A DNA stretch of 64,000 nt from Shouchella oshimensis (lineage in GTDB: Bacteria > Bacillota > Bacilli > Bacillales > Bacillaceae_D), in contig NZ_KV917380.1 in NCBI RefSeq assembly GCF_002019765.1, positions 3,955,836-4,019,835 of the forward strand, read 5' to 3'. The translations under genes and the position numbers were made by a program. The notes under the pieces were generated by a model. It saw only the letters and a program-made list of their open reading frames with translations. It made no database searches and was not told the origin of the DNA. Shown piece after piece: positions 4,826 to 26,725 of the stretch. The number at the start of each line of letters is the position of its first letter. The first letter of the stretch is position 1.

Positions 4826-4828
4826 ACC

Positions 4829-5188
4829 TTACTCCTGACTGTGAGTCATTGCCATAGTGATTAGCGTTGTTACATGCGGATCATCCAATGAATAGAAAAC
4901 CAATTTTCCTTCTTTTCTACTTTTCGCTAGACGTAGATTACGCAAATGTCTTAAATGGTGAGAGGCAGTAGCTTTTGTAACGCCAATAATATTCGCGATA
5001 TCACAGACGCATAACTCATTTTCTTGGGTTAATGTATACGCAACCTTTAATCGTGTTTCATCAGATAAAGCTTTAAACATATCTGCCACATTCGTAAATT
5101 TTTGCTTTTCAAGGCGAGCGGATATACGGTTTACCTTCGTTTCATCAAAACAAAAAACTTCGCATGTATCTTTTTTCTCAGTTAACAA
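4829..5188 (-). CDS. cadC: ArsR/SmtB-family metal-sensing repressor CadC
   Basis: Winged-helix repressor that releases DNA on binding Cd/Pb/Zn. It has the N-terminal metal cysteines (DTCEVFC), the ELCVCDI cysteine pair in the DNA-recognition region, and the recognition helix TKATASHHLRHL. That arrangement matches CadC of the cad operon. I prefer TTG at 5188 as the start (119 aa) because an AGGTGG ribosome site ends just upstream; an in-frame GTG at 5197 would overlap that site. It is co-transcribed with cadA. Autoregulation at the overlapping promoter is expected from the family, though no perfect operator dyad is visible. Confidence 0.9.
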   Translation of the reverse strand: MLTEKKDTCEVFCFDETKVNRISARLEKQKFTNVADMFKALSDETRLKVAYTLTQENELCVCDIANIIGVTKATASHHLRHLRNLRLAKSRKEGKLVFYSLDDPHVTTLITMAMTHSQE

Positions 5189-5233
5189 CAGAACCACCTC
5201 AGTCTTACAATATTATGATCATTTGATTATTAT

Positions 5234-7302: not shown

Positions 7303-7596
7303 TTGGAAATGAAAATATTTTTATTAAAAAAACTGTATACTGAAAATTTCAAGCATGCTTTAAACAGTTGGGAAAAGCAAGTAAAAGAAGAAGACATTGA
7401 TTTAAAATCTTCAACAATTGAAATTACATTCAATGATGGATCACCAGACCCAATAACATGGAATATGCCTATTATCCCTGATTTACAACTGCCCGATCAC
7501 TTGGGAGGGAATGAAATAAATGAGAACTTAAAAAAACTAAACAATAATATCTTAGATGTTGTAGAAAAAATATCTAAGAATAAAGGAAAAAATTAA
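7303..7596 (+). CDS. Small acidic protein of unknown function
   Basis: Predicted 97-aa cytoplasmic protein with no signal peptide or membrane segment. A strong GGAGGGG ribosome site lies five bases before TTG 7303; ATG 7309 is a possible alternative start. The C-terminal third (NEINENLKKLNNNILDVVEK) looks helical and possibly coiled. I do not recognise a family. It ends just before a perfect hairpin shared with the converging ferritin-like gene. Confidence 0.55.
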   Translation: MEMKIFLLKKLYTENFKHALNSWEKQVKEEDIDLKSSTIEITFNDGSPDPITWNMPIIPDLQLPDHLGGNEINENLKKLNNNILDVVEKISKNKGKN

Positions 7597-7621
7597 AACA
7601 GAGCTGCTGTGCAGCTCTGTT
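7597..7621. terminator. Bidirectional hairpin terminator
   Basis: A perfect 11-bp stem (AACAGAGCTGC / GCAGCTCTGTT) with a 3-base loop lies exactly between the stops of two converging genes. The flanks are A-rich on the left and T-poor on the right, so it should work better for the minus-strand gene. Confidence 0.6.
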
Positions 7622-7623
7622 CG

Positions 7624-8262
7624 TTACTGATTTAAAAAATATAGAAACCACACAGCATGGTTTTGTTCATCTTTAGCCGCTCTTTCAAATGTTGCTTTTA
7701 AATCTGGATATTGGCTTATACGATCAGCAACACTTAAATATTCATCAACAGTCGCTTGTTCATCCATAAAAGCGCTCTCTACTCCAGCACGATATTGATT
7801 AGGACAGTTGTTGACCTGAGACACATTAGGCTGTTGACCAAAAATATCTTGATAAAAATTTAGAAACGCATTGTAGTGCCTAATTTCATCTTGGCGGATC
7901 TCAAGAATCTTGTTTTTAATTTGGTCGTTCGGAGCAATTTGTGCTAATTGCTCATAACAAACAATAGCATTGTGTTCACCGTTTATTGCTTTAGTTAGTG
8001 CTGCATTAAGCTGTTGGCTCGTTAGTTCCATTTCTCTGTGATGAGTAAAATGATGAGTAAAGATATATGGCAGTAATTCTGAGACGCCGTCTTGATTTTG
8101 CTGCATTTGTTGATATTGATAAGGGTACTGCTGTCCATAAGGGTATTGGTATTGAGTATACTGCGGTGCTTGATAATACTGCTGTGGATATCCATAAGGG
8201 GCATACCCTTGATATGGATATCCATATGAGTAACGATCGTTTTCTATTTGATTGTTTTCCAT
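7624..8262 (-). CDS. Ferritin-like (rubrerythrin-type) di-iron protein with Tyr/Pro/Gln-rich N-terminus
   Basis: About 212 aa. Residues 1 to about 60 are a low-complexity Y/Q/P/G tail (YPYQGYAPYGYPQQYY and similar), like that of spore-coat-associated proteins. The rest is a four-helix ferritin-like domain with the carboxylate and histidine pattern GEHNAIVCYE, EIRQDEIRHY, DEQATVDEY and KDEQNHAVW (two ExxH motifs), consistent with a di-iron site. I chose ATG 8262 because GGAGG precedes it at good spacing; a longer reading from 8304 adds 14 residues before that site. No operon partner is visible. A role in oxidative protection or the spore coat is an inference from the tail and the fold. Confidence 0.75.
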   Translation of the reverse strand: MENNQIENDRYSYGYPYQGYAPYGYPQQYYQAPQYTQYQYPYGQQYPYQYQQMQQNQDGVSELLPYIFTHHFTHHREMELTSQQLNAALTKAINGEHNAIVCYEQLAQIAPNDQIKNKILEIRQDEIRHYNAFLNFYQDIFGQQPNVSQVNNCPNQYRAGVESAFMDEQATVDEYLSVADRISQYPDLKATFERAAKDEQNHAVWFLYFLNQ

Positions 8263-8395
8263 TAATATTCCTCCGTTCTTAAAAGTACACTCTAGCCTAT
8301 GCAAAAGAAATAAAGATGTGTATTTTTATGGTTCCTTCACCTTTTTAGATTATTTTCATATTGTGGATTAGGATTAAAATGCCCAGGAGGAAAAT

Positions 8396-8533
8396 ATGAG
8401 CGAAAATTCTTCTTTAAAAAGAAATGTAGTTTTTATTGTTGCGATTATTTTGTTCGGAATATTTAGCCTAGGTTCTAATAGAACAAGAGAATCGGAACGT
8501 ACAGCCGGAAGTGGTCAAATTCTATCAACATAA
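8396..8533 (+). CDS. 45-aa single-pass membrane protein
   Basis: ATG 8396 follows a textbook AGGAGG site. The product is MSENSSLKRN, then one hydrophobic segment (VVFIVAIILFGIFSLG), then a polar tail rich in Arg/Ser/Thr. Function is unknown. It is the first of three tiny consecutive genes on the plus strand that end at the terminator at 8992. Confidence 0.55.
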   Translation: MSENSSLKRNVVFIVAIILFGIFSLGSNRTRESERTAGSGQILST

Positions 8534-8550
8534 TTAGGTAGGTGAATGTT

Positions 8551-8808
8551 TTGACAAGAGAATACAATCATTTTGATGGTCTATTTAAAAAATATAGTTT
8601 ATCCCCCCAGCAAATTGCTGTAGTGACAGGTATTTTATTAGATGCACTGATCGTGCAGGCAGTGTTAGTAGATAATGATCAGCGAGTTGAGATAATACTA
8701 GAGGGCGATTTATCGGATAGTGGTAAAGTAAACACTGTTGTTAAAGATATATATAATATGAAATTTGGAGAAGTATTCGATCATTTCGGTAGAAATGATA
8801 AAGGATAG
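8551..8808 (+). CDS. Small cytoplasmic protein of unknown function
   Basis: About 85 aa from TTG 8551, placed six bases after an AGGTGA ribosome site; an in-frame GTG at 8542 would overlap that site. The mixed alpha/beta sequence (QQIAVVTGILLDALIVQAVL, then charged beta-type strands) has no recognised motif. It lies between two very small membrane-protein genes and is probably co-transcribed with them. Confidence 0.55.
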   Translation: MTREYNHFDGLFKKYSLSPQQIAVVTGILLDALIVQAVLVDNDQRVEIILEGDLSDSGKVNTVVKDIYNMKFGEVFDHFGRNDKG

Positions 8809-8823
8809 GAGCTTATAAGACTC

Positions 8824-8955
8824 ATGTTATCTGAAATTGATACTTTAGCCATCTCCTCAAGAATATTAGCCTTAATAGGCGGAATCCTTATCGTTATTGC
8901 GTCCTTTATATCGCTTAAGGTTGAATTAAGCCGAATTGATGTTGGTATTTTTTAA
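8824..8955 (+). CDS. 43-aa membrane protein
   Basis: ATG 8824 with GATAGGAG upstream, ending at TAA 8953-8955. One hydrophobic segment (RILALIGGILIVIASFISL) is flanked by short polar ends. It is the last gene of a three-gene unit of tiny proteins. Function is unknown. Confidence 0.5.
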   Translation: MLSEIDTLAISSRILALIGGILIVIASFISLKVELSRIDVGIF

Positions 8956-8991
8956 GCATTTTTTTGCACGTCAAAAGTATATTTAATCCAT

Positions 8992-9016
8992 ACCTACCCT
9001 AACAGGTAGGTTTTTT
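8992..9016 (+). terminator. Rho-independent terminator of the small-gene unit
   Basis: ACCTACC/GGTAGGT stem with a 5- to 6-base loop, followed by six Ts, about 40 bases after the 43-aa gene. The following 9017-9236 interval shows no gene. The ICE transfer operon arrives from the right and ends at about 9237. Confidence 0.75.
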
Positions 9017-9236
9017 AGTGAATTGAATTAACCAAAAATGAGCGTAATTTAATGAAAGCAATATTACCACCATCCTCTTCATGTATAAATGTAATTTTAA
9101 TTGCAAAGGCAAAAAGGCTACATGAAGTTTGATCCTGTATTTTATTTGTTGCACGCCCTAATTGATTTTGTACAGGAGTCTTCTTAACGTTTCTAAATTC
9201 AGCGATAGTCGAAAGTGAGAGTCGGATTTCTATAGT

Positions 9237-9605
9237 TTAATGTACCAAGCTTTGTCTTTCATGGTAATCTGGCTCTCGATCTATCAAACCCAATCGATCA
9301 TCCGTTTGATTCATTCTAGGCAACCATTCATAACTATCTCCGTTTTTCTCATAAAACTCATAACGAACGGTCTTTTCCTCATCCTCTAAATCAAAGAAGC
9401 CAATTCTAATATACCGACCTCCTTCATAAACACTTATATCTGCATTCTCACGAGTGACCTGCTCTTCATCCATCCACATCATAGCAGTGTCGTCATTCTT
9501 ATATAAATCAATCACCTCTTCAATCTCAGCGTCATATTCACTTCCACCACAAGCTGCTAACAACAAACCTACTAAAGAAACAACACTTAACAAGCTCTTT
9601 TTCAA
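9237..9605 (-). CDS. Lipoprotein in the yddJ position of an ICEBs1-type element
   Basis: A signal peptide of the lipoprotein type (KKSLLSVVSLVGLLLAACGG, Cys at the lipobox) is followed by an acidic domain of about 100 residues. I favour TTG 9605 because the ATG at 9614 abuts the GGAGG site. It is the last gene of the transfer operon, the place held in ICEBs1 by yddJ, a lipoprotein that blocks redundant transfer into cells already carrying the element. Sequence similarity to YddJ was not tested, so the exclusion role is inferred from position, size and lipidation only. Confidence 0.55.
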   Translation of the reverse strand: MKKSLLSVVSLVGLLLAACGGSEYDAEIEEVIDLYKNDDTAMMWMDEEQVTRENADISVYEGGRYIRIGFFDLEDEEKTVRYEFYEKNGDSYEWLPRMNQTDDRLGLIDREPDYHERQSLVH

Positions 9606-9691: not shown

Positions 9692-10210
9692 CTATTGCTG
9701 TGTAAAAGTGAAGTTGGCAACCTTCCATTGGTCCTCCTCTACTATCATTTCTAACGTTAGTATGGTCATTGCTACACTTGATAGATCATTCACTTCAATT
9801 CGATTATCAAACAAAGCAACAACCTCCACACGATCATCTAGTGATTGCCCTTCATAGATACTTAGGTTTTCCACGCTAGAATGAATCTTTTCTATATCGG
9901 TATCGCCATAAATTTCCTCTAAACCCTCTGCACCGTCAAACTGTAACTGTCCCAAGGCTTCGTTTGTGGCATAACTTTCTACATCTTGCTTTGCTGGTTT
10001 GTCTTGGTAGTTAAAATAGCCATTGATAAAATCATTAGCTACTTCCTTCGCCTGTTCGTTTGTCTCAACTTCAATAACGTTTTCATTTTTAAGCTGTTCG
10101 TTTTGCTCCACCAATGTTAGATTCTCGTTTTTTAAGCTGCTGTTTTGAAAGATAAAAAATAGCATCGTTCCAAGCAACAACACAATTATCGCTTTCATTT
10201 TCTTTTGCAT
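9692..10210 (-). CDS. Membrane-anchored accessory protein in the yddI position
   Basis: Protein of 172 aa. An N-terminal membrane anchor (IIVLLLGTMLFFIF) is followed by a short coiled-coil-like stretch (residues about 25-50, LVEQNEQLKNEN) and an extracellular alpha/beta domain of NTF2-like appearance. It starts 19 bases after the wall hydrolase gene and precedes the lipoprotein, exactly as yddI follows cwlT in ICEBs1. The domain resembles those of TcpC/VirB8-type accessory proteins in overall pattern only. No function can be assigned. Confidence 0.6.
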   Translation of the reverse strand: MQKKMKAIIVLLLGTMLFFIFQNSSLKNENLTLVEQNEQLKNENVIEVETNEQAKEVANDFINGYFNYQDKPAKQDVESYATNEALGQLQFDGAEGLEEIYGDTDIEKIHSSVENLSIYEGQSLDDRVEVVALFDNRIEVNDLSSVAMTILTLEMIVEEDQWKVANFTFTQQ

Positions 10211-10228
10211 GTATACCGCCCTTTCTTA

Positions 10229-11263
10229 TTAAAGTCCCAAAGTCTCTTTTGGATCGATTTTGTCTTGATGTGCTTGACCAAGTTCCGTCATATGCTCCAA
10301 GTGAAGGTGGTTGCCTGTACTTGAACCTGTTGTGCCACATTTACCTAATGCTTCTCCCTGATTTACTTCCTGACCGTTTGATACACCTATAGAAGATAAG
10401 TGCGCATAACGGGAAAACTCGTTTTCCCCATGCTGAACAGTTACATAATTGCCATAGCCTACATTGCTATGTTTTGCCTCAACAACTCTGCCATCTGCCA
10501 CGCTTAAAATAGAATCTGCTGGTGTACAGCCAAAGTCGAGCCCCCCATGGAATGTATTCCTTTCTCCAGTAACGGGATGTGTTCGCCATCCAAATTCGCT
10601 TGTGATGCGTATATCTCTTAATGGCAATGCCCAATCTGCATCTCCTGCTGCGTATTCGGGTTCAGTTTTATCTAAATAACGCATGACATTATCAACGTAG
10701 TTTGGGTCTCCATAAACACTCCATCCTAAGCGCTCTCTCATATGATTGGAGAATTGTTGTGCCAGTTCTTTGCTATAGTTACCATTGTTATGTTCATTTG
10801 CGTAATCAATAAAACCGTGCCCCATGTTGTAGCTTTGTAAGGCTAATTCTGTATTACCACCAGCACTTTCTAGTACATTTGCAAAATAGCTCACACCTTG
10901 TTTAATAGATAGCTCTGGATCGGTGATTGTATTAACAGGCAGTCCAAGTGATTCAGATGATTGCATGACATCGGCTAGGCGACCACCACTTTCTTGCATG
11001 GTCATTGCCATTAAAATTTCAATATGATCTTCAATGCCATTTTCTTTCGCATAACGTTCAAAGTAACTGCGGTACCGCTCAATCTCTGGGCCTACTCCAT
11101 TAAACGTATAGTCCGAATTAATATCACTTTCGATTTCAGAATGGGCATCATTCCCTGTTGTGTTGCTTTCTCCTGTAATAACCATGACAACGCCCATTAG
11201 AATCAATGCCACAAACATAAATGGAATGGTCACTAGAACTAAACCACATCCTAGCTTTTTCAT
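10229..11263 (-). CDS. cwlT: CwlT-like bifunctional cell-wall hydrolase (lysozyme-like + M23 peptidase)
   Basis: Opens the peptidoglycan for the conjugation channel. The 344-aa protein has an N-terminal membrane anchor (about residues 8-30), a CwlT/SLT lysozyme-like domain (catalytic Glu in AMTMQESGG, then SYNMGHGFIDYA) and a C-terminal M23/LytM metallopeptidase domain from about residue 215 (EFGWRTHPVTG, zinc ligands in FHGGLDFG and HLHLEH). ICEBs1 CwlT instead carries an NlpC/P60 peptidase at this place, so the peptidase module differs. It lies between conG and the yddI-like gene in the transfer operon. Confidence 0.85.
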   Translation of the reverse strand: MKKLGCGLVLVTIPFMFVALILMGVVMVITGESNTTGNDAHSEIESDINSDYTFNGVGPEIERYRSYFERYAKENGIEDHIEILMAMTMQESGGRLADVMQSSESLGLPVNTITDPELSIKQGVSYFANVLESAGGNTELALQSYNMGHGFIDYANEHNNGNYSKELAQQFSNHMRERLGWSVYGDPNYVDNVMRYLDKTEPEYAAGDADWALPLRDIRITSEFGWRTHPVTGERNTFHGGLDFGCTPADSILSVADGRVVEAKHSNVGYGNYVTVQHGENEFSRYAHLSSIGVSNGQEVNQGEALGKCGTTGSSTGNHLHLEHMTELGQAHQDKIDPKETLGL

Positions 11264-11294: not shown

Positions 11295-13451
11295 CTATTT
11301 AGACGCTCCCTTTGCTCTACGTGTATGCCGATCTTCTTCTTTTTCAATTGCTTCTAAATCTCTTTTTTCATTGTACTGTGCGGTTCTGGTAAGTTCTGTA
11401 TTCGGTTGATCATGGCGTTCATTGACCCTTTTAGTTGGTTGAACTCCTTGTTTTTCTTTGTTTTGAATCCATTGAGGTTCGTTTTGTGAAGGTTTTTGTT
11501 CCATTCGATTATTAGCAGAATTTATACCTTTTGTGTGACGTAATTGATTGTCTCTCTCTGATTTATCTACCGAACGCAACGCTCGATGATCGTCTAAGTA
11601 CGTCACATCACCTTGTTTGATAGACGGACGATACGATGGTTCCTGATGTTCACGTGGCTGTGGTTGTTTCGTTCGTTCGTGTTCTCTTTGATTGATTTCT
11701 TGTCTTGGCGCATGCCGTTCATCTTTTTGATAAGCCGTAACTGGGCTTAAATCTTCTGTTGGTTGCTTCTGTTCTTTTTGCTCTTGTTTAGACGCTTGTT
11801 TTTCCGCTTTCTTCTTCCGCTTCTCTGCTTTCTTTTCTTCACGTTTTTGTTGGGGCGTCCGTTCAGTACGCTTTATTTGGTCATTGTGTGCGACAGCCGA
11901 AGACGGGCTTTCTAGTTTCCCATCAGTTTGTGGTGTTCGTGCTTCTGCTAATTGAGCAGTGTTTCGACCTTCTTTCACACTCGTACGATCACTTTTAGGT
12001 GGTGCTTGATGCTCGGTTTGTTGAATAGGCGATTCCCGTAAACCTGCCGGGCGTGGTTTTATTGCGTTAACAGCCGGATTGACCATTTCATTCCGTACTT
12101 GATTAAGCATGTTGTTATCAACCGACGTAACTTTCCCAGCTGTCACCATTTTAATTAACGCATCTCGTTTCCAGATCATTAAAAGCAAGACGGCAATTAA
12201 CACAGTCAGATTGACTAAATACATCGCAAATCCTTCTGGAGGCAAGACCGCATCGACGATGAAGCAAAGCACATAGACAAACAAAACAAGGATACCAAGC
12301 ATTACTTTTAAAACGAACACACTTAATAGCTTGCCGATGCTTACAAAACCTGAATATGCCAATTGAGGAATGTACGACATGATGAACGAAAATGGGATAA
12401 AAAACGCAAGCGCCAACGCGATAAGCTGCAAGAGGAAATTTAGCAATGCTAGTAGCAAGAACGGTATACCGAGCAGAATGGAACCAAATAAAGCGATTAA
12501 GGATTGCCCCATTTGTTGAAAGACATTTCCTCCACCCATGTTTTCGTTGTTATACTCGTCTATTTCACCATCTACATAGCTTTGCCTATCCTTTTCGCCA
12601 TCACTCGTTAACTGAAACGACAACATGCGATCTACTCTGTTGAAATGGCTTCCGCCCGGAAAATCTTCTGGATCAGCGTGGTCATTCTCATTAATTGCGT
12701 TCTCACTTGTCGTGCCGTAATTTACAATGAGATAAGGCTTTTTCATTGCCAAATCAAAGTAGACATTTCTCATGATTGAGATGGTACCATCCATTTTGTT
12801 TTCAGGATCAATTTGACTCGTATCGGCATAAACGCCTTCACCTTCAGCCACATTAATTAATCCATTCCCCGCTTCAAGCATGTAACCTTGTGCTTCAACA
12901 GACAATGCATTTAATGACTTCATAAAGTAGCCAGCATTAAGCATCCAGTAGCCACCTACAACAAGCACCAAAAAGAATAAAACGGATCTTCTCAAAGCTT
13001 CTTGGACGCTTCCCTTTGCAATAAACAAATAGACAATGTAGCCTACCGCAAATACAAAAAGCAACTCGCCGAAGTGTTCTTTCAACGTATCATATACGGT
13101 AGTTGAAATTATTGTTAATGTATCCGCAAATTCATCAATCGGCTCTAATGAATACAATTTATCCATTGCTGTATCTACGACTAGAACAACGTTCCCAGCT
13201 AGAGAAAAAATGACATTCGTAAAGCCTACGAATGCCCCCTTAATTCGACCGTCAGCATCTTCATTGTTGGCTACGTATCTTGATATGGGAAAGCGTTTAA
13301 TGGAAAGCTCAACACCCCCTTTTTCTTCTATCTTTGGTTCGGTCATATTCTCTTGGTCATTCGCAAAAACGATTGTATGAGAACCAAAAAAGAGCAGGGC
13401 AATGAGCGCTGCTCCAATACTTATCCAAATCGCTTTTTGTTTCCAGTTCAT
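11295..13451 (-). CDS. conG: ConG-like polytopic conjugation channel protein
   Basis: Core membrane component of the type IV secretion apparatus (ConG/TcpH/VirB6-like). The 718-aa protein has a signal/anchor segment, an extracellular loop region, several membrane segments clustered at about residues 130-180 and 325-440 (FLLLALLNFLLQLIALALAF and neighbours) and a long hydrophilic, Gln/Lys/Arg-rich cytoplasmic tail from about residue 480 (KKAEKRKKKAEKQASK and similar). That layout fits the family. It follows yddF by 15 bases and precedes the cwlT-like gene, as in ICEBs1. Confidence 0.85.
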   Translation of the reverse strand: MNWKQKAIWISIGAALIALLFFGSHTIVFANDQENMTEPKIEEKGGVELSIKRFPISRYVANNEDADGRIKGAFVGFTNVIFSLAGNVVLVVDTAMDKLYSLEPIDEFADTLTIISTTVYDTLKEHFGELLFVFAVGYIVYLFIAKGSVQEALRRSVLFFLVLVVGGYWMLNAGYFMKSLNALSVEAQGYMLEAGNGLINVAEGEGVYADTSQIDPENKMDGTISIMRNVYFDLAMKKPYLIVNYGTTSENAINENDHADPEDFPGGSHFNRVDRMLSFQLTSDGEKDRQSYVDGEIDEYNNENMGGGNVFQQMGQSLIALFGSILLGIPFLLLALLNFLLQLIALALAFFIPFSFIMSYIPQLAYSGFVSIGKLLSVFVLKVMLGILVLFVYVLCFIVDAVLPPEGFAMYLVNLTVLIAVLLLMIWKRDALIKMVTAGKVTSVDNNMLNQVRNEMVNPAVNAIKPRPAGLRESPIQQTEHQAPPKSDRTSVKEGRNTAQLAEARTPQTDGKLESPSSAVAHNDQIKRTERTPQQKREEKKAEKRKKKAEKQASKQEQKEQKQPTEDLSPVTAYQKDERHAPRQEINQREHERTKQPQPREHQEPSYRPSIKQGDVTYLDDHRALRSVDKSERDNQLRHTKGINSANNRMEQKPSQNEPQWIQNKEKQGVQPTKRVNERHDQPNTELTRTAQYNEKRDLEAIEKEEDRHTRRAKGASK

Positions 13452-13465
13452 CCTCTCCCTCCTTT

Positions 13466-13792
13466 CTAGTCCATTCTTGTTAGAAGAAAGAAATCATAGT
13501 TGACGCTTTGTAGTTCTTTTTCTGTCAGCTTCTTGTATTCGATGTAGCGGTCATACAACTTGAAACAAAGGGCTTTCTGGTATTTCTCTTGCCTAAATCG
13601 GATACGGTTAACTGGGACTGGAAAACCAAGTAGTTCTTCTAAGACAAGTGATGAGGACTCGTGCCCGACATAGCTTTGATAGTTTGTTTCATGTGCGAAC
13701 ATCATTTTTCGTGCTTCCATTAAGGTGATTTTTTCTGCCTTATACAAGCCTTGATTGGTAATAACCAATGAATTTAATATCGCTAACTTCAT
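13466..13792 (-). CDS. yddF: YddF, DUF1874 (AcrIII-1/ring-nuclease-fold) protein
   Basis: 108-aa soluble protein that I recognise as YddF of ICEBs1, a member of DUF1874. Visible family features are the N-terminal AILNS strand, a helix (LMEARKMM), the conserved YVGHESSS loop with His at about residue 44, LLGFPVPVNR, and the C-terminal YDFFLLTR motif. DUF1874 includes the viral anti-CRISPR AcrIII-1, which degrades the cyclic tetra-adenylate messenger of type III CRISPR systems through an active-site His in this loop. Whether the ICE member has that activity is not shown here. It sits tightly between conE and conG. Confidence 0.88.
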   Translation of the reverse strand: MKLAILNSLVITNQGLYKAEKITLMEARKMMFAHETNYQSYVGHESSSLVLEELLGFPVPVNRIRFRQEKYQKALCFKLYDRYIEYKKLTEKELQSVNYDFFLLTRMD

Positions 13793-13806
13793 CCTCTACC
13801 TCCCTT

Positions 13807-16305
13807 CTATAAATACTTTTCTTCTGCCGTTGCCACTGAAGACGTCTCAACGGTTTCTAGCGCTCCATACCATTCGTCGAATAAGCACTCAATGCTCATT
13901 TTTGCTGTTCGACCATAATAGTCTTTAAAAAGGCATTGTCCTTGGAACATGTTTTCCATCATGTCTTCGTTCTCTTCACTCGGCTCCATATTCATCCACT
14001 TAAGCACTTCTTTTCGCTCTGTTGGTTCATCGAACGCAAATGCTACACCGAAGTTTCCCGATTCTTCTTCACGCAATGCGTCTTTCGTGCTTTGTGAAAT
14101 AAAGACGAGGGCATTATTATAACTCCGTCCTACACGACGCATTTGTTTTTCTACTTTTCTTCCTTGTTGGCTGGATGTAATAACCCATGCTTCGTCCATA
14201 AATTCCATTGTCCGTTCTTCCTTGTTCATACCAAATAGCTCGCAAAACTTTCCAAGCGCAAACATAACGGCACTTGATTTTAGTTGTGAGTTTGTGTAGC
14301 TTTCGATTGGATCGGTCGCTTCTGGTAGATCAAGGTTTTCGATTTCAACGATACTAATACGCTTGTTTAACGAAAGTGCTTGATTTGAACCATCATGAAC
14401 ACATAGTTTCATAATCGAATCGGCTACGACTTCATATAAAAAATCCCCAGCCTTTTGGACTGCGGAATCATCGTGGTTTCTCATCTGTTCAATAATTGTC
14501 AGAGAGCCAACTTGCTCCCCGTTTTGCTTTTGCTCCAATACGTTGGTAATGGCACGTAGAAAAGCCGTATGCACATCGTCTTTGCCCTTAAAATCGTAAA
14601 CTTGAGCAAAGATGACTTGCACCATTTCCTTTGCTTGCATTGGTGGAAGAAATACAACTGGATCAAGTGCTCCCCAATTGTCTTCATCCGCTGCATCGAG
14701 CGTTGTAAAATGGAACTTCTCAAGATGCTGTGTGAATAGCGGATACTCTTGTTGCACTCTTGGGTTTTGCTTTACCTTATCAATCCATTTCCGTAATTCT
14801 TTCTTGGGATCAATGTACAAAGATTTCACGTTTAGCATACTGACATAGATAAACAACAGCTTTGCTAAAAAGGATTTACCCGTGCCTGTATCCCCCGTAA
14901 TTAGAACATGGGGCGAACGTGTCTTTGACCCTTTGAGCTGTTGGTTAGCTAAGAACATATGGTACAAAACAGGAAATCGACTTGCTGAAATCGCGCCTTG
15001 TAAATCAGCATGCTTCACAAACGGATCAATCCAACCAATAAAAAAGCCAATCTTTGAACCAACATCAGCTGATACGCCAAATAACCCTTCTGCCAAACCA
15101 TCTTGAGTAGTCTTTTGCAGCCAATTTCGGTTTGTTACATCTAATCGTTCCCCGGGAAGAAACTTATAGAACAAAGGCAATTGATCCGCGACTGGAATAC
15201 GACACGTTATGCCTGCTGACTTCATATGTCTTGTCACAAGCTTTGCCCGATTTTTACATTCCTTCTTGGTCTCCCCTTGTACGACAATGACCGCTAACCA
15301 GTTCAACATGTCTACATCATCTTTTTTTATTTCGTTTTGTAAGTGTCTCACTAAATAAGCACTCGCACTTACCGATGAATCTTCTTGATCGCCAACACGG
15401 TTTTGTTCCAGCGTTGATTCTTTTAGCTGCTGCTTCTTTAAATTCAAATCCATCTTCGTTTTTGATTTGCTTTCGACTTGCACTTTCATCTCAATCTCTA
15501 CTGAAAAAGGAAGCGTTTGCGCCTCGTAGAACAGCTCACTCTCCGCCATATTATGTCGAAACTCGTCGATCACCACAAATGACATATAGCCTTCCGATTC
15601 ATCGCTCGTTAGTTTCAACACTCCAGAAGAGGTTGGATCAATTAACGTGTTTGTTATCGCATCTACAGAGGCATTTTCAATCTCTTCCCCTACTTGATGG
15701 TCTAAGCCTCGTAAGAAGTTATAGCGATTTACATAGATTAATTCGTCTTCTCTTAAACGAATTCCATTCACCATTGCACATAGACTGGCGGTTGTTTCCT
15801 CTGCCTCTTCGTACTGTTGAAAGAAAGAGGTGGAAACGCTTTGTTCCCACCCTAATAGATTTACAATTGTATCTGTTGCCGTTGAAAACATCGACATCAT
15901 GTTTTCCTTAAGTTCAGCATCACTATTGACTAAGTTCTGCTTTAATTTCACCCCTAATATAAAATCATTCTTTGTGACTTTTCCTAAGCGTTGATTAAGC
16001 AATCGTACTGTTTCTTCTGTATAGTACTCTGCCATTTGCTTTGCGTCTTCTGCGAGATCTTGTTCCAAGTCAGCAAATCGTTCTTCTAGCCGATATTCTT
16101 GTGGGTACATCATTAGATGAAAATCCTTATGCGTGGTTAGCTCTTCAAAGAAGGCTTTCCAGTTCCGTTTGTAGCTGTTTACTACTTTTTTATTTTGCAT
16201 GGGAATGGACTGACTCTTGATTCGGTAATACGCCCACACGTCGCCCGTTCTCGTTAACAGTAGATTGTTCCTCATCGTTTTCATTGGTGTTTTCAATGTA
16301 CTCAC
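13807..16305 (-). CDS. conE: ConE, VirB4-family conjugation ATPase
   Basis: Membrane-associated ATPase that powers the conjugation machine. The 832-aa length is essentially that of ICEBs1 ConE. The Walker A motif is ITGDTGTGKSF (about residue 475) and Walker B is MEFMDEAWVI (about residue 705), followed by a conserved ISQSTKDALREEE-type segment. The N-terminal half is the VirB4-type domain. Its start lies inside the end of conD (116-base overlap in another frame), implying translational coupling. Gene order conB-conC-conD-conE-yddF-conG is kept. Confidence 0.93.
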   Translation of the reverse strand: MSTLKTPMKTMRNNLLLTRTGDVWAYYRIKSQSIPMQNKKVVNSYKRNWKAFFEELTTHKDFHLMMYPQEYRLEERFADLEQDLAEDAKQMAEYYTEETVRLLNQRLGKVTKNDFILGVKLKQNLVNSDAELKENMMSMFSTATDTIVNLLGWEQSVSTSFFQQYEEAEETTASLCAMVNGIRLREDELIYVNRYNFLRGLDHQVGEEIENASVDAITNTLIDPTSSGVLKLTSDESEGYMSFVVIDEFRHNMAESELFYEAQTLPFSVEIEMKVQVESKSKTKMDLNLKKQQLKESTLEQNRVGDQEDSSVSASAYLVRHLQNEIKKDDVDMLNWLAVIVVQGETKKECKNRAKLVTRHMKSAGITCRIPVADQLPLFYKFLPGERLDVTNRNWLQKTTQDGLAEGLFGVSADVGSKIGFFIGWIDPFVKHADLQGAISASRFPVLYHMFLANQQLKGSKTRSPHVLITGDTGTGKSFLAKLLFIYVSMLNVKSLYIDPKKELRKWIDKVKQNPRVQQEYPLFTQHLEKFHFTTLDAADEDNWGALDPVVFLPPMQAKEMVQVIFAQVYDFKGKDDVHTAFLRAITNVLEQKQNGEQVGSLTIIEQMRNHDDSAVQKAGDFLYEVVADSIMKLCVHDGSNQALSLNKRISIVEIENLDLPEATDPIESYTNSQLKSSAVMFALGKFCELFGMNKEERTMEFMDEAWVITSSQQGRKVEKQMRRVGRSYNNALVFISQSTKDALREEESGNFGVAFAFDEPTERKEVLKWMNMEPSEENEDMMENMFQGQCLFKDYYGRTAKMSIECLFDEWYGALETVETSSVATAEEKYL

Positions 16306-16714
16306 GTTTTTTCGCCACCACCTTTACACAGCGTTTAAACTGGATTGTTGAAGCACTCATCCATTCGACCTCTCGATCATTACAGAAACGCTTTTTTGGA
16401 AGTTTTATTTGAACGTAGTATTTGGCTACATCCAAAAAATATAAATAAATGTTCTTACCTTCAGGTTTAATTTTCGTTACGAGTATGGTTAACGCTAGGG
16501 GTAAACCAATTAACCACATCACAAAGGTTCGTTCAAACGTATGAGGAAACCCCATACGAATAATCTGTCCTATCAGAAATGTCATCGTCATAAAAATAAA
16601 AAAGTTGATAACTGGGATCAACTCAAACGGGATTGGTAGACTATATGAAGCCGTCAGCTGCTGTACTTTTTTAGGTTCTCTTAATGCTTTTCGGTAGTTA
16701 AAAACGGTTCGCAA
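16190..16714 (-). CDS. conD: ConD-like conjugation membrane protein
   Basis: 174 aa with two adjacent membrane segments (about residues 32-50 and 60-82), a basic N-terminus (NYRKALREPKKVQQLTASYS) and a cytoplasmic tail. This matches ConD/TcpD-PrgI-type small channel proteins next to VirB4 in ICEBs1-like elements. It follows conC by 12 bases. Its last 38 codons overlap the start of conE; whether the whole tail is retained or conE starts later cannot be decided from sequence alone. Confidence 0.8.
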   Translation of the reverse strand: MRTVFNYRKALREPKKVQQLTASYSLPIPFELIPVINFFIFMTMTFLIGQIIRMGFPHTFERTFVMWLIGLPLALTILVTKIKPEGKNIYLYFLDVAKYYVQIKLPKKRFCNDREVEWMSASTIQFKRCVKVVAKKREYIENTNENDEEQSTVNENGRRVGVLPNQESVHSHAK

Positions 16715-16726
16715 CCTCTCACCTCC

Positions 16727-16984
16727 TTAGAATGTATCAATGAATGCTTCAATCCACCCGCTCACTTGAGACCAATTTTGCACAACAAATGTGGCGATTC
16801 CACCGACAATGCATGTCATAATAATTCCACCTATCTTAAATCGAGCTAAGTGTTTTGCGATCAAGAAGAAAACAAACAACCCTATTACTTGAGCTACAAC
16901 AACAAGCCCCCAATTCTCTACGCCATCTAGTGTCGGTAATCCACTAGGAACTGACCCTACCGTTAATTTATTTAATAGATTCAT
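16727..16984 (-). CDS. conC: ConC-like small membrane protein
   Basis: 85 aa with two membrane segments (LVVVAQVIGLFVFFLIA and IIMTCIVGGIATFVV). It has the size, topology and place of ConC between conB and conD. ConC in ICEBs1 is required for transfer. GGAGG precedes the ATG. The family is defined by context rather than catalytic motifs. Confidence 0.8.
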   Translation of the reverse strand: MNLLNKLTVGSVPSGLPTLDGVENWGLVVVAQVIGLFVFFLIAKHLARFKIGGIIMTCIVGGIATFVVQNWSQVSGWIEAFIDTF

Positions 16985-16999
16985 ATTCTTTTCCTCCTT

Positions 17000-18046
17000 C
17001 TATTGATAGTCCATTGATTCAATGTAGTAATTTCCTTCATGTCGATTAATCTCTAATTCCATAAAAGCAGGCTGTGGAATGTTCGTCCCTTTCCCTCTGA
17101 ACATCACGGCTACCTCTGCTTTAAATCCATTGTCCACTTCAATGAGTTTTACATCTTGAATCTCTTCAAATGAAAGAGCACCGTTTAAACTTTCCGGCTC
17201 CTTCATCATGTAAGCCAATTCTTCTTTTGGCTCAGCAGCATATCGTTCAAAGAAAGAATGTAAAAACTCTTGAACCGCTGATTGTTCCTCCCCGACATAA
17301 GGATCAATGTGTGATTTCTCTTCCTCTATTCTTATAGTTCCATTTAAGGAATACACTTCTGAAAAATACGGAGTACCTGCAATGGCGAAAGTACTTTCTT
17401 CTGCAATCACTGGAATGTTTAATAGTAACGTTTGTTTCGCCTCTTCATTTTCAATGACAATTTCAGTATCTGGTTCATCGTCATCATCTTCCGGCTCGAT
17501 CTCTACCTCTTTTTCTTTTGGAACTTGATTTGTGAACGTGACTTTATATTGAAATAAGGTTTCTTCTTCTTTCTCTCTCATGTTAAACAAGGAATGGTTT
17601 TCTAAAATTCTATTACCTTGTAAATCTGACAGTTGATAAAGCGGATGTTTGTCATCCTGTAAAGTAGCTGATTGAGCCATGTAATTTTTCAGCGTTTGTT
17701 TTCTTTCTTCTAGTGTTTCATGGGTGTTTTCAACATTGATGAACACATCAATAAATCCTGAAAGATACTGTTCAGCAGCAGGTAATGAAATAGAGGGCGA
17801 CTCTTCCTCATTTGCTTCACTCGAGAGATGCGCATTGGTTTCATTTAAAGCAGACCTTGTATTTACTGAAAGCAAAATAGTTAATAGTGAGAGGACAACA
17901 ATGCTCCCTAATAATGACCACACAGCCGTTGCTGTTCTCTTTGAATGATCTTTACGAATCATGCTTCTTTGCTTGGCTGGTTTCTTGATTCGTTTAAAGC
18001 GGTGTTTAAGGCGCTCGATTATCGAGTGCCCACCGGATTTAGCCAT
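17000..18046 (-). CDS. conB: ConB (TcpC/VirB8-like) conjugation protein
   Basis: 348-aa bitopic membrane protein with a basic cytoplasmic N-terminus (residues 1-45, HRFKRIKKPAKQRSMIRK), one membrane segment (about 45-68) and two extracellular NTF2-like domains joined by an acidic linker (EPEDDDDEPDTE). This is the TcpC/ConB layout; ConB helps place other channel proteins at the membrane. Its start overlaps the end of the yddA-like gene by eight bases. It is part of the transfer operon upstream of conC-conD-conE. Confidence 0.85.
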   Translation of the reverse strand: MAKSGGHSIIERLKHRFKRIKKPAKQRSMIRKDHSKRTATAVWSLLGSIVVLSLLTILLSVNTRSALNETNAHLSSEANEEESPSISLPAAEQYLSGFIDVFINVENTHETLEERKQTLKNYMAQSATLQDDKHPLYQLSDLQGNRILENHSLFNMREKEEETLFQYKVTFTNQVPKEKEVEIEPEDDDDEPDTEIVIENEEAKQTLLLNIPVIAEESTFAIAGTPYFSEVYSLNGTIRIEEEKSHIDPYVGEEQSAVQEFLHSFFERYAAEPKEELAYMMKEPESLNGALSFEEIQDVKLIEVDNGFKAEVAVMFRGKGTNIPQPAFMELEINRHEGNYYIESMDYQ

Positions 18047-18341
18047 CCTTTAACCCTCCTTGATCTAGTTCGATATAAGCTAAAAAAGATGCTACTCGTC
18101 GTAACACCTTTTTCGCTGAAACATCTTTCTCGTATACTTTTAAACGCCTTTGACCACCTCCGGGCAAGCACGTCATTTTATAGAACGTATATCGATAGGT
18201 GGAATAGCCCTTTTTTCTAACGCCTTCGACAACAAGCATAGAACGTTTACTTAAATCCATTACATACACTTGCGAACCAATGCCTACCGTAAACCCTAAC
18301 AACTTAAATCGTTCATCCAACGTCTTGTAGTGAGCTAACAT
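18039..18341 (-). CDS. YddA-like small ICE protein
   Basis: 100-aa soluble, basic protein in the yddA position just before conB. It has a beta-rich first half (GIGSQVYVMDLSKRSMLVVE, RYTFYKMTCLPGGGQRRLKV) and a helical end. The ATG at 18341 directly follows a hairpin with a T-run, so its translation and transcription could be limited by that structure. Function is unknown; conserved position is the only clue. Confidence 0.6.
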   Translation of the reverse strand: MLAHYKTLDERFKLLGFTVGIGSQVYVMDLSKRSMLVVEGVRKKGYSTYRYTFYKMTCLPGGGQRRLKVYEKDVSAKKVLRRVASFLAYIELDQGGLKDG

Positions 18342-19176: not shown

Positions 19177-20238
19177 TTAACAGACCATATCTTGTGGACT
19201 TGCTAGTAGCACATCAAGCATTTTTTCCTGTTTATCTGATAGCTCGGCGTTGACGACCATATCCGATAAATCTTGTCGCCCTAAGACCTGATCCGCTTCA
19301 AGCACCATTTTCATCGTTGGTGCACATGAATTCTGCAACCACCTCCTCGATTTCTCGTAAAACTCATCTTCTGGCTGCATAAACAGGCTTAGCTTGCCGA
19401 CATCACCTATGAACACTTTCCAAAATCCACTTGTTTTCCATTTTTCTCTTGAAGCATCTTCATCGGCATCAACAAATCGAATGTAGTTGTTAATAATCTG
19501 CATAGCGATATCAAGTAAATCTTGTGACTGAATTAATGATTGAACAGCTCCTTGCGCTCGATCATTTTTAAGCCTTAGCTCGTAGCGATTCCAGTCGCCA
19601 AGATCTTCAAGAGGAATATTATATTTGTCAGCTTGTTCGTGGTTCTTCTCATAGAAGCAAAGATAAGCTTCTGATTTTTTCGACCCAAAGTATAGTGTCG
19701 TTCCCCCATTCGATCCGTCTGCAATATCAAGCGAGCCATTAAAATCTGACTTACGAAACCGTGAAATGGCTTCGCCCTTCTTCACTTTTTCTAACAGCAT
19801 GGGGATTTCAAAGTATGTTTCTTGATCATCAATCGCTAAGTCAAAGCGACTGAACTTGCCACCATGGTTAATGCAGTCTTTGAAGAAATCAAACCACGTT
19901 TTCTTGCGAGCATCCAAGAAGCTTTCAAACTGTCGGCATCCTTGACCAGACATCTCCACCAATACGCCTCGATTGTCACCTTCTTTCGAATAAAAGACTT
20001 TAATATGATCAAGCTGATAGGTACCGATGTAACCATAAAAGCCTGACTCCTTTTCCTGCATGTATGCTTTCTTCAAATGGACGATATGTTCTAGGATGAA
20101 ATTAACATCATGTGTTTTAAAAGATACTCGCAAGTAGTCAACCATTGCTGTTAAAGGGTTTTGGACTGCTTCCGGTTCTTTTTCTACGATTACTACCCCC
20201 CTGTTAGCTAGGGGGGGTTGGTGTTTTGTGGTCGTCAT
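19177..20238 (-). CDS. nicK: NicK relaxase (Rep_trans family)
   Basis: Nicks oriT and stays bound to the 5' end for transfer and rolling-circle replication. The 353-aa length is typical. Motifs visible are the VDYLRVSF start of the Rep_trans domain, the FSRFDLAIDD stretch with catalytic acidic residues, and a RYELRLK segment. The ATG overlaps the conQ stop by four bases. The oriT lies inside its own codons 7-15, as in ICEBs1. The following gap may hold a single-strand origin. Part of the DNA-processing module helP-conQ-nicK. Confidence 0.92.
   Translation of the reverse strand: MTTTKHQPPLANRGVVIVEKEPEAVQNPLTAMVDYLRVSFKTHDVNFILEHIVHLKKAYMQEKESGFYGYIGTYQLDHIKVFYSKEGDNRGVLVEMSGQGCRQFESFLDARKKTWFDFFKDCINHGGKFSRFDLAIDDQETYFEIPMLLEKVKKGEAISRFRKSDFNGSLDIADGSNGGTTLYFGSKKSEAYLCFYEKNHEQADKYNIPLEDLGDWNRYELRLKNDRAQGAVQSLIQSQDLLDIAMQIINNYIRFVDADEDASREKWKTSGFWKVFIGDVGKLSLFMQPEDEFYEKSRRWLQNSCAPTMKMVLEADQVLGRQDLSDMVVNAELSDKQEKMLDVLLASPQDMVC
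20195..20218 (-). other. oriT: oriT inside nicK
   Basis: A 24-base site with arms ACCCCCCC and GGGGGGT flanking TAGCTAACA (minus strand). From memory, the ICEBs1 oriT has the same C7/G6 arms and the same GCTAACAGGGGGGT half, and also lies at the 5' end of nicK. The nick is expected in the GCTAACAG region (family knowledge). Confidence 0.85.
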
Positions 20239-21704
20239 TCGCTTCGCTCACTCCTCCCGCTCGTTCCCGTTTCTGTCGCTACGCTGCCGCTGGCGACTGC
20301 CGTCGCCGACGCTCCATTCACTCCCACTTGTGCTCGCTTGATTTCTTCCATAAAGTCATATCCTTTCGTGACGAGTGGGCTATAAAATTCTGATATGGTT
20401 GATGTGCCTGTGTCGGCATAGCCACGACCCTTTATGCTTTTATTTAAAAAAGTTTTATCGACATCACCAAACATCATGCCGTAACCAGATTCCGACATCT
20501 TCCCTAGCGCCACTCGAAAATTAAATTGGTCACGGATACCATCAGCTAAGTACTTGGCATCTGGTCGTTGCGCTCCGAGAACCAAAAAATAACCCATCTG
20601 CCTTCCGAGCATGACGAGCTGTTTCATATAGCCTAACGCTTCCATTCGTTCTTGTGGTTCCAACAAATCCATAAACGCTACATACTCATCAAAAAAGATA
20701 AACATGGGAGGCAATCCAAGGTAGGCGTAGTTCTCACCTGTCTTGTAATTTGGCATCTGTTTCATTTCATCTGAACGATTCATCATGCCCTCCACCGATT
20801 TACGCAAACACATCATAATGCCGTTTTTCTTTGAATACACCACTCCTTTTGGAAGAACCGCTTCTAAATCTGCCAAGTCCGCGTTTTTTGGATCAAGTAT
20901 ACTAATTTCGGCATTCGATTTAAGCACGGCTTGAATAATCGTTAAGATGAAGTATGTTTTTCCTCCACCTGTTCCACCAGCAATTAACATATGTGGCAGC
21001 TTATCAAATTCCCAATACACGTTCTTCATTAAGCTCATCGAACCGTTTTTTACTTGTACTTCTTGAATCGGAATACGATTCTTTTTTACATCGTACAGAA
21101 GCTTAAAAACCACAAATCCTTCTTCGACTTCACGATCAACTAAATCACAAAATAAGCCATTCTCTAAGTCTGTACCTAGTTCTAAATAACGCGCTTGAAA
21201 TCTGCTTAAATCAAGAGCAACACGGACATAGATATGACCATTCTTCACTTGATAATAGGCACGAGGAAAATAGGTAATCTTTCTTTTTGTAACGGTCTTA
21301 TTTGTCCATCCCGACTCTGTTTGGAAGTTTTCTTGTTCGTAAAAGCGATTTGAAAAAAACATGCGTGCAATTTTTTGCTTGTGAAGCAACTGTTTGAACT
21401 GATCAAATGCAACAAGATAGACAATACCTACAACTGCTGCTGCGATAAGAAAAGATACAGCGAATCTTGATAACAAGAACGACCAATTCCAGCTCTCATA
21501 CTCAATAAATACCTTGTATTGTTCCCAATCATTCCATTGGAAAATTGGAAACGAATCTTTAAAGCTATAAAAAAGGACAGCTAGGAAAACGGGTACAAAT
21601 ACGCCCAATCCTGCTGTCCAAACTGCATTTCTCATGTGAGGGGTGATTCGATGACCGCGGTATTTCCAAAGGCGGCGTTTAATTGCTTCTATAATCTTTA
21701 ACAC
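20235..21704 (-). CDS. conQ: ConQ, FtsK/SpoIIIE-type coupling ATPase
   Basis: Couples the relaxase-DNA complex to the transfer channel. The 489-aa protein has two N-terminal membrane segments (about 28-48 and 80-102), then an FtsK/SpoIIIE P-loop domain: Walker A LIAGGTGGGKTYF (about residue 248) and Walker B MFIFFDEYVAF (about residue 345), with VLGAQRPDA further on. The C-terminal tail is low complexity (Ala/Ser/Gly/Thr). It overlaps nicK by four bases and follows helP, as in ICEBs1 (ydcQ). Confidence 0.92.
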   Translation of the reverse strand: MLKIIEAIKRRLWKYRGHRITPHMRNAVWTAGLGVFVPVFLAVLFYSFKDSFPIFQWNDWEQYKVFIEYESWNWSFLLSRFAVSFLIAAAVVGIVYLVAFDQFKQLLHKQKIARMFFSNRFYEQENFQTESGWTNKTVTKRKITYFPRAYYQVKNGHIYVRVALDLSRFQARYLELGTDLENGLFCDLVDREVEEGFVVFKLLYDVKKNRIPIQEVQVKNGSMSLMKNVYWEFDKLPHMLIAGGTGGGKTYFILTIIQAVLKSNAEISILDPKNADLADLEAVLPKGVVYSKKNGIMMCLRKSVEGMMNRSDEMKQMPNYKTGENYAYLGLPPMFIFFDEYVAFMDLLEPQERMEALGYMKQLVMLGRQMGYFLVLGAQRPDAKYLADGIRDQFNFRVALGKMSESGYGMMFGDVDKTFLNKSIKGRGYADTGTSTISEFYSPLVTKGYDFMEEIKRAQVGVNGASATAVASGSVATETGTSGRSERSE

Positions 21705-21713
21705 TCCTTTGAG

Positions 21714-21748
21714 AAAAAATTAGAGCGCACCAGTCTTAACTAGCACGC
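21714..21748 (-). terminator. Weak hairpin before conQ
   Basis: Minus-strand GCGTGCTAGT / ACTGGTGCGC pairs with several G-T wobbles around a 4-base loop. A six-T run follows after five bases. It lies in the helP-conQ gap and might attenuate read-through, but the stem-to-T distance is long. Confidence 0.3.
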
Positions 21749-21758
21749 ATAAAAATAC

Positions 21759-22163
21759 TTATTTTTTATCTGAACCAGCTGTTACAGGTTCTTTTTGCTC
21801 TTTGGCTTTCGGTTCAAAGTTAGAATTAGATTTATGTCCAGTTTCCACGATATCTTCTGCGAGTAACGTATAAATGATATTGGCAAAGTTCCCATTCGCT
21901 TGGGCTCTTGCTGTAATTCTTGGATTCACTAGCTCAACTGGTTTATTAAAATCAATTTCTTTTAAGTCGACATAATCAGGCAATGTTACTTCTATTTGTC
22001 CTTGCTGAACACTTGATGCTACGTTATAAATGCGTGCTTCCAACTTATCTGTACGCTCTCCCTTTTCACGGTCAAAGTACATTTTCTCTCTGTTTAATCC
22101 CATAAAAATCATGTTTCCAAATGTCTCTTGTGGTTCTGGCTTAATTCCATTTTTTAAATTCAT
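21759..22163 (-). CDS. helP: HelP helicase processivity factor (DUF961, YdcP)
   Basis: Helps the host helicase PcrA unwind ICE DNA during replication and transfer. About 134 aa; the DUF961 core covers residues 1-105 (ETFGNMIFMGLNREKMYFDR, GQIEVTLPDYVDLKEIDFN, NPRITARAQANGNFANIIYT). The C-terminal tail is charged and low complexity. I set the start at ATG 22163, after GAGGAA; a longer reading from 22217 adds residues with no ribosome site. It lies first in the helP-conQ-nicK module, preceded by a long noncoding leader. Confidence 0.88.
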   Translation of the reverse strand: MNLKNGIKPEPQETFGNMIFMGLNREKMYFDREKGERTDKLEARIYNVASSVQQGQIEVTLPDYVDLKEIDFNKPVELVNPRITARAQANGNFANIIYTLLAEDIVETGHKSNSNFEPKAKEQKEPVTAGSDKK

Positions 22164-22583
22164 TATAAATTCCTCTTTTCGTTTTAGTAGTTTTATTTTC
22201 CAAAGACTTCTCATCAATTTTCATCGCAACAATTTATAGAAACCGCTCAGGTTCTGTATCCATCATGGCGCTTGTCAGTCGCTCCAGAACTTTCTGTCTT
22301 TCTTGGCAACGTTAGTAGGTTATTGTATAACCATCAAGCTGTATACAGCTATGGCGCACGTATCTTCTTACCTGCTACAGCATTTAAACAAGTGTTAGCT
22401 GTGTCCACTTAATACTCACGCCTAGTGACATAACGAAGAAAGTACGCTACAATAAAATTTCCTAGGTTTTACTGGCGTATCTGACTTCTGTCAGGTGCGC
22501 TTTCTTTCTATATGTAATTATCAATGTACTCACTCATTTCATTCGCTTATAAGATCGTTAATAGTGGTCTATACTCACACTAT
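22164..22583 (-). other. Long structured noncoding leader upstream of helP
   Basis: 420 bases without a credible gene. The minus strand can fold CTGAC-agaa-GTCAG, a perfect AGCTGTATACAGCT palindrome, GGTTAT-aca-ATAACC and a GAACC...GGTTTC pairing. Two short frames (15 and 27 codons) lack ribosome sites. It may be a regulatory leader or a second single-strand origin. Function cannot be read from the sequence. Confidence 0.4.
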
Positions 22584-26073: not shown

Positions 26074-26287
26074 ATTATTAATTGGGGAGAGTAATTAGAA
26101 ATATACTATTGCATTTGGGAATGCAGTCAATATAGCTTTTGCAAACACTGATCTTTTTAAATCTTTTATAAGTGAGAACTGGTCTTTAGATTCTCTTTAT
26201 ATCCATCTCTTAATTGAGACACAAAAAAATATATTGGTTTTTTAAATGACTAACGTGACGTTGATAAAAATGAAAGGCTTGGTAGTG

Positions 26288-26317
26288 GTTAAACCAATAT
26301 TGGCTTAACTTTTTTTC
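26288..26317 (+). terminator. Terminator downstream of int
   Basis: GTTAA-a-CCAA / TTGG-c-TTAAC stem with a two-base loop, then seven or more Ts. It is oriented to end the immR-immA-int transcript about 215 bases after the int stop. Confidence 0.7.
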
Positions 26318-26529
26318 CTTAGTGCCTGAAGAGATAAATATTTTTTTTGGTGGAATGTCTTAGTAATAATAAAGCAATTTATTATTTAGGTGAGCATGGT
26401 TTACATGCTCCTTTTCTATATTTCACTTTATACCTTACCATTTCACCGCAAGATTATTTATATCAATTTGTTTCTCTTCAATTTCATGCCATTAGTATTC
26501 ATGATCTAATAAGGAGCTTGCCATAAGAT

Positions 26530-26588
26530 GTACTCTCCTTTATAGCCAATAAGGTTACGGAGCAACAGGTCTATAAAAAAGGGAGTAC
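26530..26588. repeat. Near-perfect inverted repeat
   Basis: Arm GTACTC-t-CC-TTTATAG (26530-26545) pairs with CTATAAAAAAGGGAGTAC (26571-26588) around a 25-base centre containing GGTTACGGAGCAACAGG. It could be a structured RNA, a small transposon remnant or a recombination site. Confidence 0.5.
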
Positions 26589-26725
26589 CCCTCCAGTATT
26601 TTATGGTTTTTCGTCAATTATCACTATATAAGATTTTTTGGGAGGGGACTTCTTGTTTAACTCTTGTTATCCTTATCACGCAAGGGGTTAGAATTTTGAT
26701 ATTCACTCACTTAACAAGTTATGGG

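Follow-up and report, generated by a model that had tools for sequence, protein, structure and literature searches.

The yddF gene of an ICEBs1-like element in Shouchella oshimensis encodes a predicted DUF1874 ring nuclease and is probably an anti-type III CRISPR cargo gene

The stretch of Shouchella oshimensis DNA analysed here (64,000 nucleotides, hereafter the window) carries an integrative and conjugative element (ICE) with an intact yddF gene at positions 13466–13792 of the minus strand. Judged by its sequence, the product, YddF, is very likely a DUF1874 ring nuclease, and yddF is probably an anti-type III CRISPR cargo gene. The best explanation, to which we assign a probability of about two in three, is that YddF is a cyclic tetra-adenylate (cA4) ring nuclease of the AcrIII-1/Crn2 (DUF1874) family that protects the ICE in recipients with cA4-signalling type III CRISPR systems.

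According to the list of open reading frames, yddF starts with ATG, lacks inner stops and encodes 108 amino acids. YddF residues 3–100 match the Pfam profile PF08960 (STIV_B116-like) with E = 4.4e-25 and 88.2 bits against a cut-off of 26, and cover profile positions 1–100 of 101, i.e. the DUF1874 assignment extends across the whole protein. A phmmer search of solved structures returned AFV3-109 (2J6B) as the best relative (2.8e-9), with weak matches to STIV B116 (2J85, 0.05), 2X4I (0.052) and the CRISPR-associated protein 8Y7F (0.19). The PF08960 and 2J6B scores place the family match far above chance. Membership in DUF1874, as claimed in the first-pass annotation of this DNA, is upheld by them, and the three motifs it had named are found at residues 4–8 (AILNS), 41–45 (YVGHE, including His44) and 99–106 (YDFFLLTR). 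The gene is the sole PF08960 match in its 4.06-Mb genome. None of the NCBIfam models matched YddF at E 0.01, and the PHROG comparison led to PHROG 5063, which is listed with function unknown. The PADLOC model PDLC01147, labelled Csx16, matched YddF at 4.5e-12 as well as all four other DUF1874 proteins scanned (one from an archaeal virus, one from an ICE and two from other Bacillota). The label looks like a naming overlap, with PDLC01147 acting as a DUF1874 model here; as it matched all five proteins scanned, annotation under the Csx16 label may mix families. Comparison of the window YddF with its nearest kin gave a dN/dS of 0.079, a weak value as it derives from two amino-acid changes, and dN/dS was saturated in eight of ten YddF pairs.

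Alignment with 2J6B equates His45, Arg64, Gly44, Glu86 and Arg83 of AFV3-109 with H44, R63, G43, E85 and R82 of YddF. PMC1796864 describes a cradle formed by the AFV3-109 dimer, where His45 lies close to Arg64 and bonds Glu86 of the other subunit, while Arg64 bonds the carbonyl of Gly44 and Arg83 that of Ala42. The codon of His44, the predicted general acid, was counted from the start of the reading frame and occupies positions 13661–13663 (minus strand). Conservation was followed over the 23 DUF1874 proteins that also served for the tree (six from ICEs, four from bacterial phages, three from archaeal viruses and ten from other Bacillota genomes). This set excludes a frame-broken Geomicrobium copy, the other phage records, and the copies of genomes G049 and G170, which closely resemble L025 and L026; the phiBB and Rostov7 proteins were read from the open frame covering the match instead of from the annotated start, and the SIRV1 gp29 and THSA-485A proteins are absent from the tree. 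N7, S40, G43, R63 and R82 are invariant over the set. H44 and E85 are each found in 22 of the 23 proteins, and it is the protein of locus L112 that deviates at both sites. The histidine expected at about residue 44 is thereby confirmed, and it is well supported by the alignment that YddF keeps the catalytic and dimer-contact residues. The exceptional L112 protein (2144–2479) has Tyr for the catalytic His and Asp for the Glu, with terminase-like genes nearby as read by eye, and may bind without cleaving. Elsewhere in the family, paper passages available in part are the source for the inactivity of the H47A mutant of SIRV1 gp29, altered in the equivalent histidine, and of the H495A mutant of a Csx1-Crn2 fusion.

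Taken from the family, YddF would be a small, dimeric and metal-independent enzyme whose two subunits enclose cA4, with His44 acting as general acid while the 2'-hydroxyl of the substrate attacks the neighbouring phosphate. Cleavage would proceed from cA4 via A2>P to A2-P, and Csx1-type effectors would hence stay inactive. Fold, cA4 cleavage, anti-CRISPR effect and the timing proposed below are what we infer for YddF. AFV3-109 was itself interpreted in 2007 as a nucleic-acid binding protein or transcription factor, and a corresponding role of YddF has been considered. In the accessible parts of PMC1796864, interaction of AFV3-109 with dsDNA was detected by fluorescence quenching and the dimer was likened to viral DNA-binding modules; a strong positive surface patch is absent, though one lies inside the cavity. 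As ring nuclease activity was later shown for the family, according to literature available in part, and the conserved residues line the cavity, we regard DNA binding as the role of YddF as very improbable.

The genes around yddF belong to an ICEBs1-like element. Upstream lies conE (13807–16305, minus strand), a gene for a VirB4-like ATPase (PF12846, 7.6e-122) with 42–81% identity to ConE of ten other elements. The downstream neighbour, conG (11295–13451, minus strand), gave no match in the Pfam search; it was identified by the same-place gene, which is 28–51% identical in ten other elements (46.9% in Bacillus velezensis) and 94% identical in L118, with L113 being a second copy of L028 in this comparison. 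A cwlT-like gene for a cell-wall hydrolase with lysozyme-like and M23 domains (PF13702, PF01551) follows at 10229–11263 (minus strand). The same operon includes homologues of conD, conC, conB and yddA (16190–18341, minus strand), assigned through PF12648 (TcpE, conD), PF12642 (TpcC, conB) and blastp against B. velezensis ICE copies, and homologues of nicK, conQ and helP/ydcP are found at 19177–22217 (minus strand), with 70%, 64% and 50% identity to the B. velezensis element. An integrase gene at 24958–26073 (plus strand) was read by eye from the ORF list as a tyrosine recombinase; an annotated site-specific integrase occupies the same end of L007. The resulting order, helP-conQ-nicK-yddA-conB-conC-conD-conE-yddF-conG-cwlT, was established by blastp against B. 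velezensis and kin and recurs in a 20,007-base circle of B. velezensis deposited as plasmid pVTX9_1 (L007, NZ_CP074686.1), which resembles an ICEBs1-type element in excised, circular form. Thus, the position between conE and conG of a transferable element, as first proposed, is correct for the window. A 13-base word common to 26050–26760 and 7550–9300 that could mark the ICE ends (attL/attR) was not found, nor was a terminator-like site in 13300–14000. Outside the con genes, a P-type metal ATPase and an ArsR-type regulator were noted by eye at 2693–5197. Owing to its location inside the conjugation operon, yddF is expected to be expressed when the ICE is induced or has newly entered a cell; YddF would then be made upon induction or just after entry, and would shield the ICE in recipients whose type III CRISPR signals with cA4. 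The operon in B. subtilis offers a parallel, as PMC9605947, available in part, places yddF among the induced ICEBs1 operon genes.

The first-pass annotation had further described yddF as fixed between conE and conG, and in this respect it does not hold for the ICE family. ConE was detected at E <= 1e-60 in 18 of 397 genomes of the order, and at >=60% identity in nine: the window's own genome, G267, G049, G170, G035, G341, G305, G164 and G240. The first five of these carry a PF08960 gene and the other four do not, and PF08960 was absent from all other genomes of the 397-genome sample. In the elements of these four genomes, the gap between conE and conG measures 138 bases (L114), 11 bases (L115) or 6 bases (L117, by longest frame); L116 has a gap of about 970 bases with no YddF match, and the more distant element L119 has a lipoprotein gene in place of yddF. 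L115, without yddF, and Bacillus sp. SD075 (L027), with an intact copy, share 94% identity in ConE. Decay of single genes was observed as well. In the Geomicrobium sediminis ICE yddF lies in two pieces in different frames (L028, about 9983–10323; L113, about 10053–10253), with open con genes next to it, and the PF08960 gene of G035 is likewise split between frames. G267, the nearest relative, has an intact yddF and a conE in two frames (L118, 10343–12837), so that this ICE may not transfer. Mapping the presence of an intact yddF onto a tree of 11 ConE proteins requires three changes. Because elements with matching con operons differ in the presence of yddF, the gene came or went without harm to the operon, and it behaves as dispensable cargo rather than as core of the ICE. 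Its benefit, judging by the frame-broken Geomicrobium copy and the elements devoid of yddF, is not constant. A role of YddF in the workings or the regulation of conjugation, with yddF retained through its position, would agree with the identical place of yddF in six intact elements and with a YddF tree that follows the ConE tree over five common rows; the matching con operons of L114, L115, L116 and L117 without yddF, and the lipoprotein gene of L119, make this reading improbable.

In the sequence collections searched the gene is rare. DUF1874 genes were found in one of 72,556 plasmid records and, at <60% identity throughout, in 23 of 50,697 phage records. A scan of genome contigs with two patterns gave four DUF1874 loci, with records near the window's genome possibly excluded, and a scan of viral contigs with the window YddF alone matched the pattern in two stretches, neither of which encodes a relative. 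In the 23-protein tree the six ICE copies form one group (100/100). Together with six chromosomal copies and the proteins of phages FNU1, phiBB and Rostov7 they make up a larger group (98/97), outside which the archaeal virus proteins fall. Both the relation to phage proteins and the cargo-like distribution of yddF are in line with counter-defence. The branch to the ICE group is long (1.16 changes per column), which leaves room for changed specificity. The six chromosomal genes (L103, L104, L105, L107, L108 and L109), from Bacillota of other classes, make up a well-supported group of their own (99/97) in ordinary-looking chromosomal surroundings; the fetched stretches contained no matches to the other ICE genes of the window, and their genomes no clear Cas10.

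Cas10 was not found in the host genome (99.98% complete), and yddF could therefore matter only in other recipients; a crude finder detected no CRISPR array within the window. By location YddF is not a Crn2. It shares the family with Crn2, and a Crn2-like enzyme tuning the type III CRISPR of its own host was weighed on that ground, but in a host and window of this composition we give it next to no chance. Potential recipients were surveyed with PF22335, the Pfam model of the Cas10 palm, which also matches diguanylate cyclases, and matches of >=46 bits were counted as Cas10. Among seven such hits checked, four (L037, L039, L040 and the Cmr2 of L096) exceeded the curated cut-off of an NCBIfam Cas10 model, and three (L041–L043) matched Cas10 models below cut-off only, with GGDEF models unmatched. 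Hits at 35.5–38.6 bits were rejected, as four out of four checked were GGDEF proteins. With this threshold, Cas10 occurs in 15 of the 397 genomes of the order, three weaker ones resting on below-cut-off matches, and none of the five DUF1874 carriers is among them. A phylum sample yielded PF08960 in 11 of 398 genomes, including the window's own; one of the ten others, G511, has a clear Cas10, on a different contig from its DUF1874 gene. Altogether, clear Cas10 is absent from 13 of the 14 other carriers searched (four in the order, ten in the phylum); L007, L025–L028 and the phage hosts lay outside the Cas10 search as such. It should be noted that with five carriers and 15 Cas10 genomes among 397 only about 0.2 joint occurrences are expected, and with so few carriers the co-occurrence says little either way. 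Csx1-type genes (TIGR02221) were present in seven of 16 fetched Cas10 loci, from six of the 15 genomes; candidates were preselected by an RxxxxH pattern, so others may be missed. PADLOC assigned all four scanned TIGR02221 proteins to Csx1/CARF2-HEPN. By analogy to the Csx1 proteins of PMC7213978 and PMC7371418, which these papers, available in part, describe as activated by cA4, the proteins of the order would respond to the same signal. Csx1-type genes near Cas10 thus suggest that plausible cA4 recipients exist in the order.

Contact between CRISPR and the ICE family is suggested by one array. A crude array finder, run on the 16 Cas10 loci, yielded 465 distinct candidate spacers, which came from 14 of them. 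One spacer of L096 (G383:C57:6001-22003) is present twice, at about 15541 and 15673, beside a type III-B Cmr1-6 operon, and reads RMRHVFEKYARK against CwlT RLRHVFEKYARK of L117, an ICE of the same genus, with agreement of 30 of 40 bases and 11 of 12 residues in frame; the corresponding site of L027 and of L115 agrees in 29 of 40 bases. The match scores 61; the highest score reached by 930 shuffled spacers is 42, and that reached by 465 reversed ones is 39. Assuming the usual ATTGAAA-type handle, the guide is presumably antisense to the cwlT mRNA, as type III needs. An exact protospacer was not found: at <=3 mismatches the spacer occurs in one of 44 genomes of the genus, twice and only in its own array. 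Spacers with weak likeness to ConQ, NicK or another L117 ORF scored 41–45 against the null maximum of 42 and were left uncounted. The repeat of the array resembles the type I-C repeat, and the array may therefore serve another system. The gene beside the Cmr operon is NucC (PADLOC 4.1e-79), instead of a known cA4 effector. NucC is activated by cA3. L117, the best-matched ICE, has no yddF, and the best matches do not include the cwlT of the window. Taken together, the spacer suggests that the ICE family is under CRISPR pressure, but not that this pressure works through cA4.

The NucC gene at this locus, the divergence of the ICE group and the shortage of clear Cas10 in most carriers searched would also suit a ring nuclease or cyclic-nucleotide binder for another signal, e.g. 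in CBASS, in which case YddF would be anti-defence but not directed against type III CRISPR. We judge this unlikely, as YddF retains the residues that have been linked to the activity of cA4 enzymes and the DUF1874 enzymes described in the literature, as available in part, cleave cA4.

The known systems closest to YddF include AcrIII-1. With the AcrIII-1 proteins of SIRV1 (gp29) and Thermoanaerobacterium phage THSA-485A, YddF has in common the family, the length, the active-site histidine with its partner residues, and a location on a mobile element, outside CRISPR loci; PDB 6SCF, the complex of gp29 with cA4, is listed in PMC7293037 as a structure of AcrIII-1. YddF differs in being located on an ICE, within the conjugation operon, in a separate long-branched group known by sequence. 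AFV3-109 shares the aligned His45, Arg64, Arg83 and Glu86 but is an archaeal virus protein, distant from YddF in sequence. Crn2 and the Csx1-Crn2 fusion of Marinitoga piezophila share the domain and the catalytic histidine (His495 in the latter, according to a source available in part), but Crn2 resides within type III CRISPR loci, unlike the window yddF. YddF of B. subtilis ICEBs1 matches in element type and gene place (cwlT, conG, yddF and conE in order in the available parts of PMC9605947) and belongs to another host lineage; the B. subtilis control genome matches PF08960, and the aligned stand-in was the B. velezensis copy, which is 51% identical to the window protein.

Several of these relations are already in print. 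PMC1796864 (2007) placed B. subtilis yddF in an integrated element of 24 genes and named it an orthologue of AFV3-109. An eLife 2020 paper noted that AcrIII-1 occurs in integrative and conjugative elements in general. PMC12409355, which makes the case for a viral origin, reports AcrIII-1 from 36 of 28,114 phage genomes; its count of type III loci with Crn2 is seven. Our literature search, over partly available texts, returned no paper that connects AcrIII-1 with the names yddF or ICEBs1, and the accessible portions of PMC11318856 and PMC11984713 contain nothing on yddF. The window yddF is a well-placed further member of a published family, and since family and ICE location were both published the surprise is limited. 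New here are the evidence on presence and absence of yddF, the YddF tree, the cwlT spacer and the observation on Cas10 in the other carriers.

A broader reading, to which we give an even chance, treats the conE-conG gap as a cargo slot: a phage-like ring nuclease would have been acquired there once, and kept or lost by lineage as recipients with or without cA4-signalling type III CRISPR were met, with at least one type III-bearing member of the order having recorded the ICE conjugation operon on the type III-guide strand through the match to CwlT. If this holds, YddF would be an anti-CRISPR of conjugation, not of phage infection. Anti-CRISPRs are best known from phages; if a well-studied model ICE carries a ring nuclease in its conjugation operon, counter-defence by signal destruction would serve conjugative transfer too.
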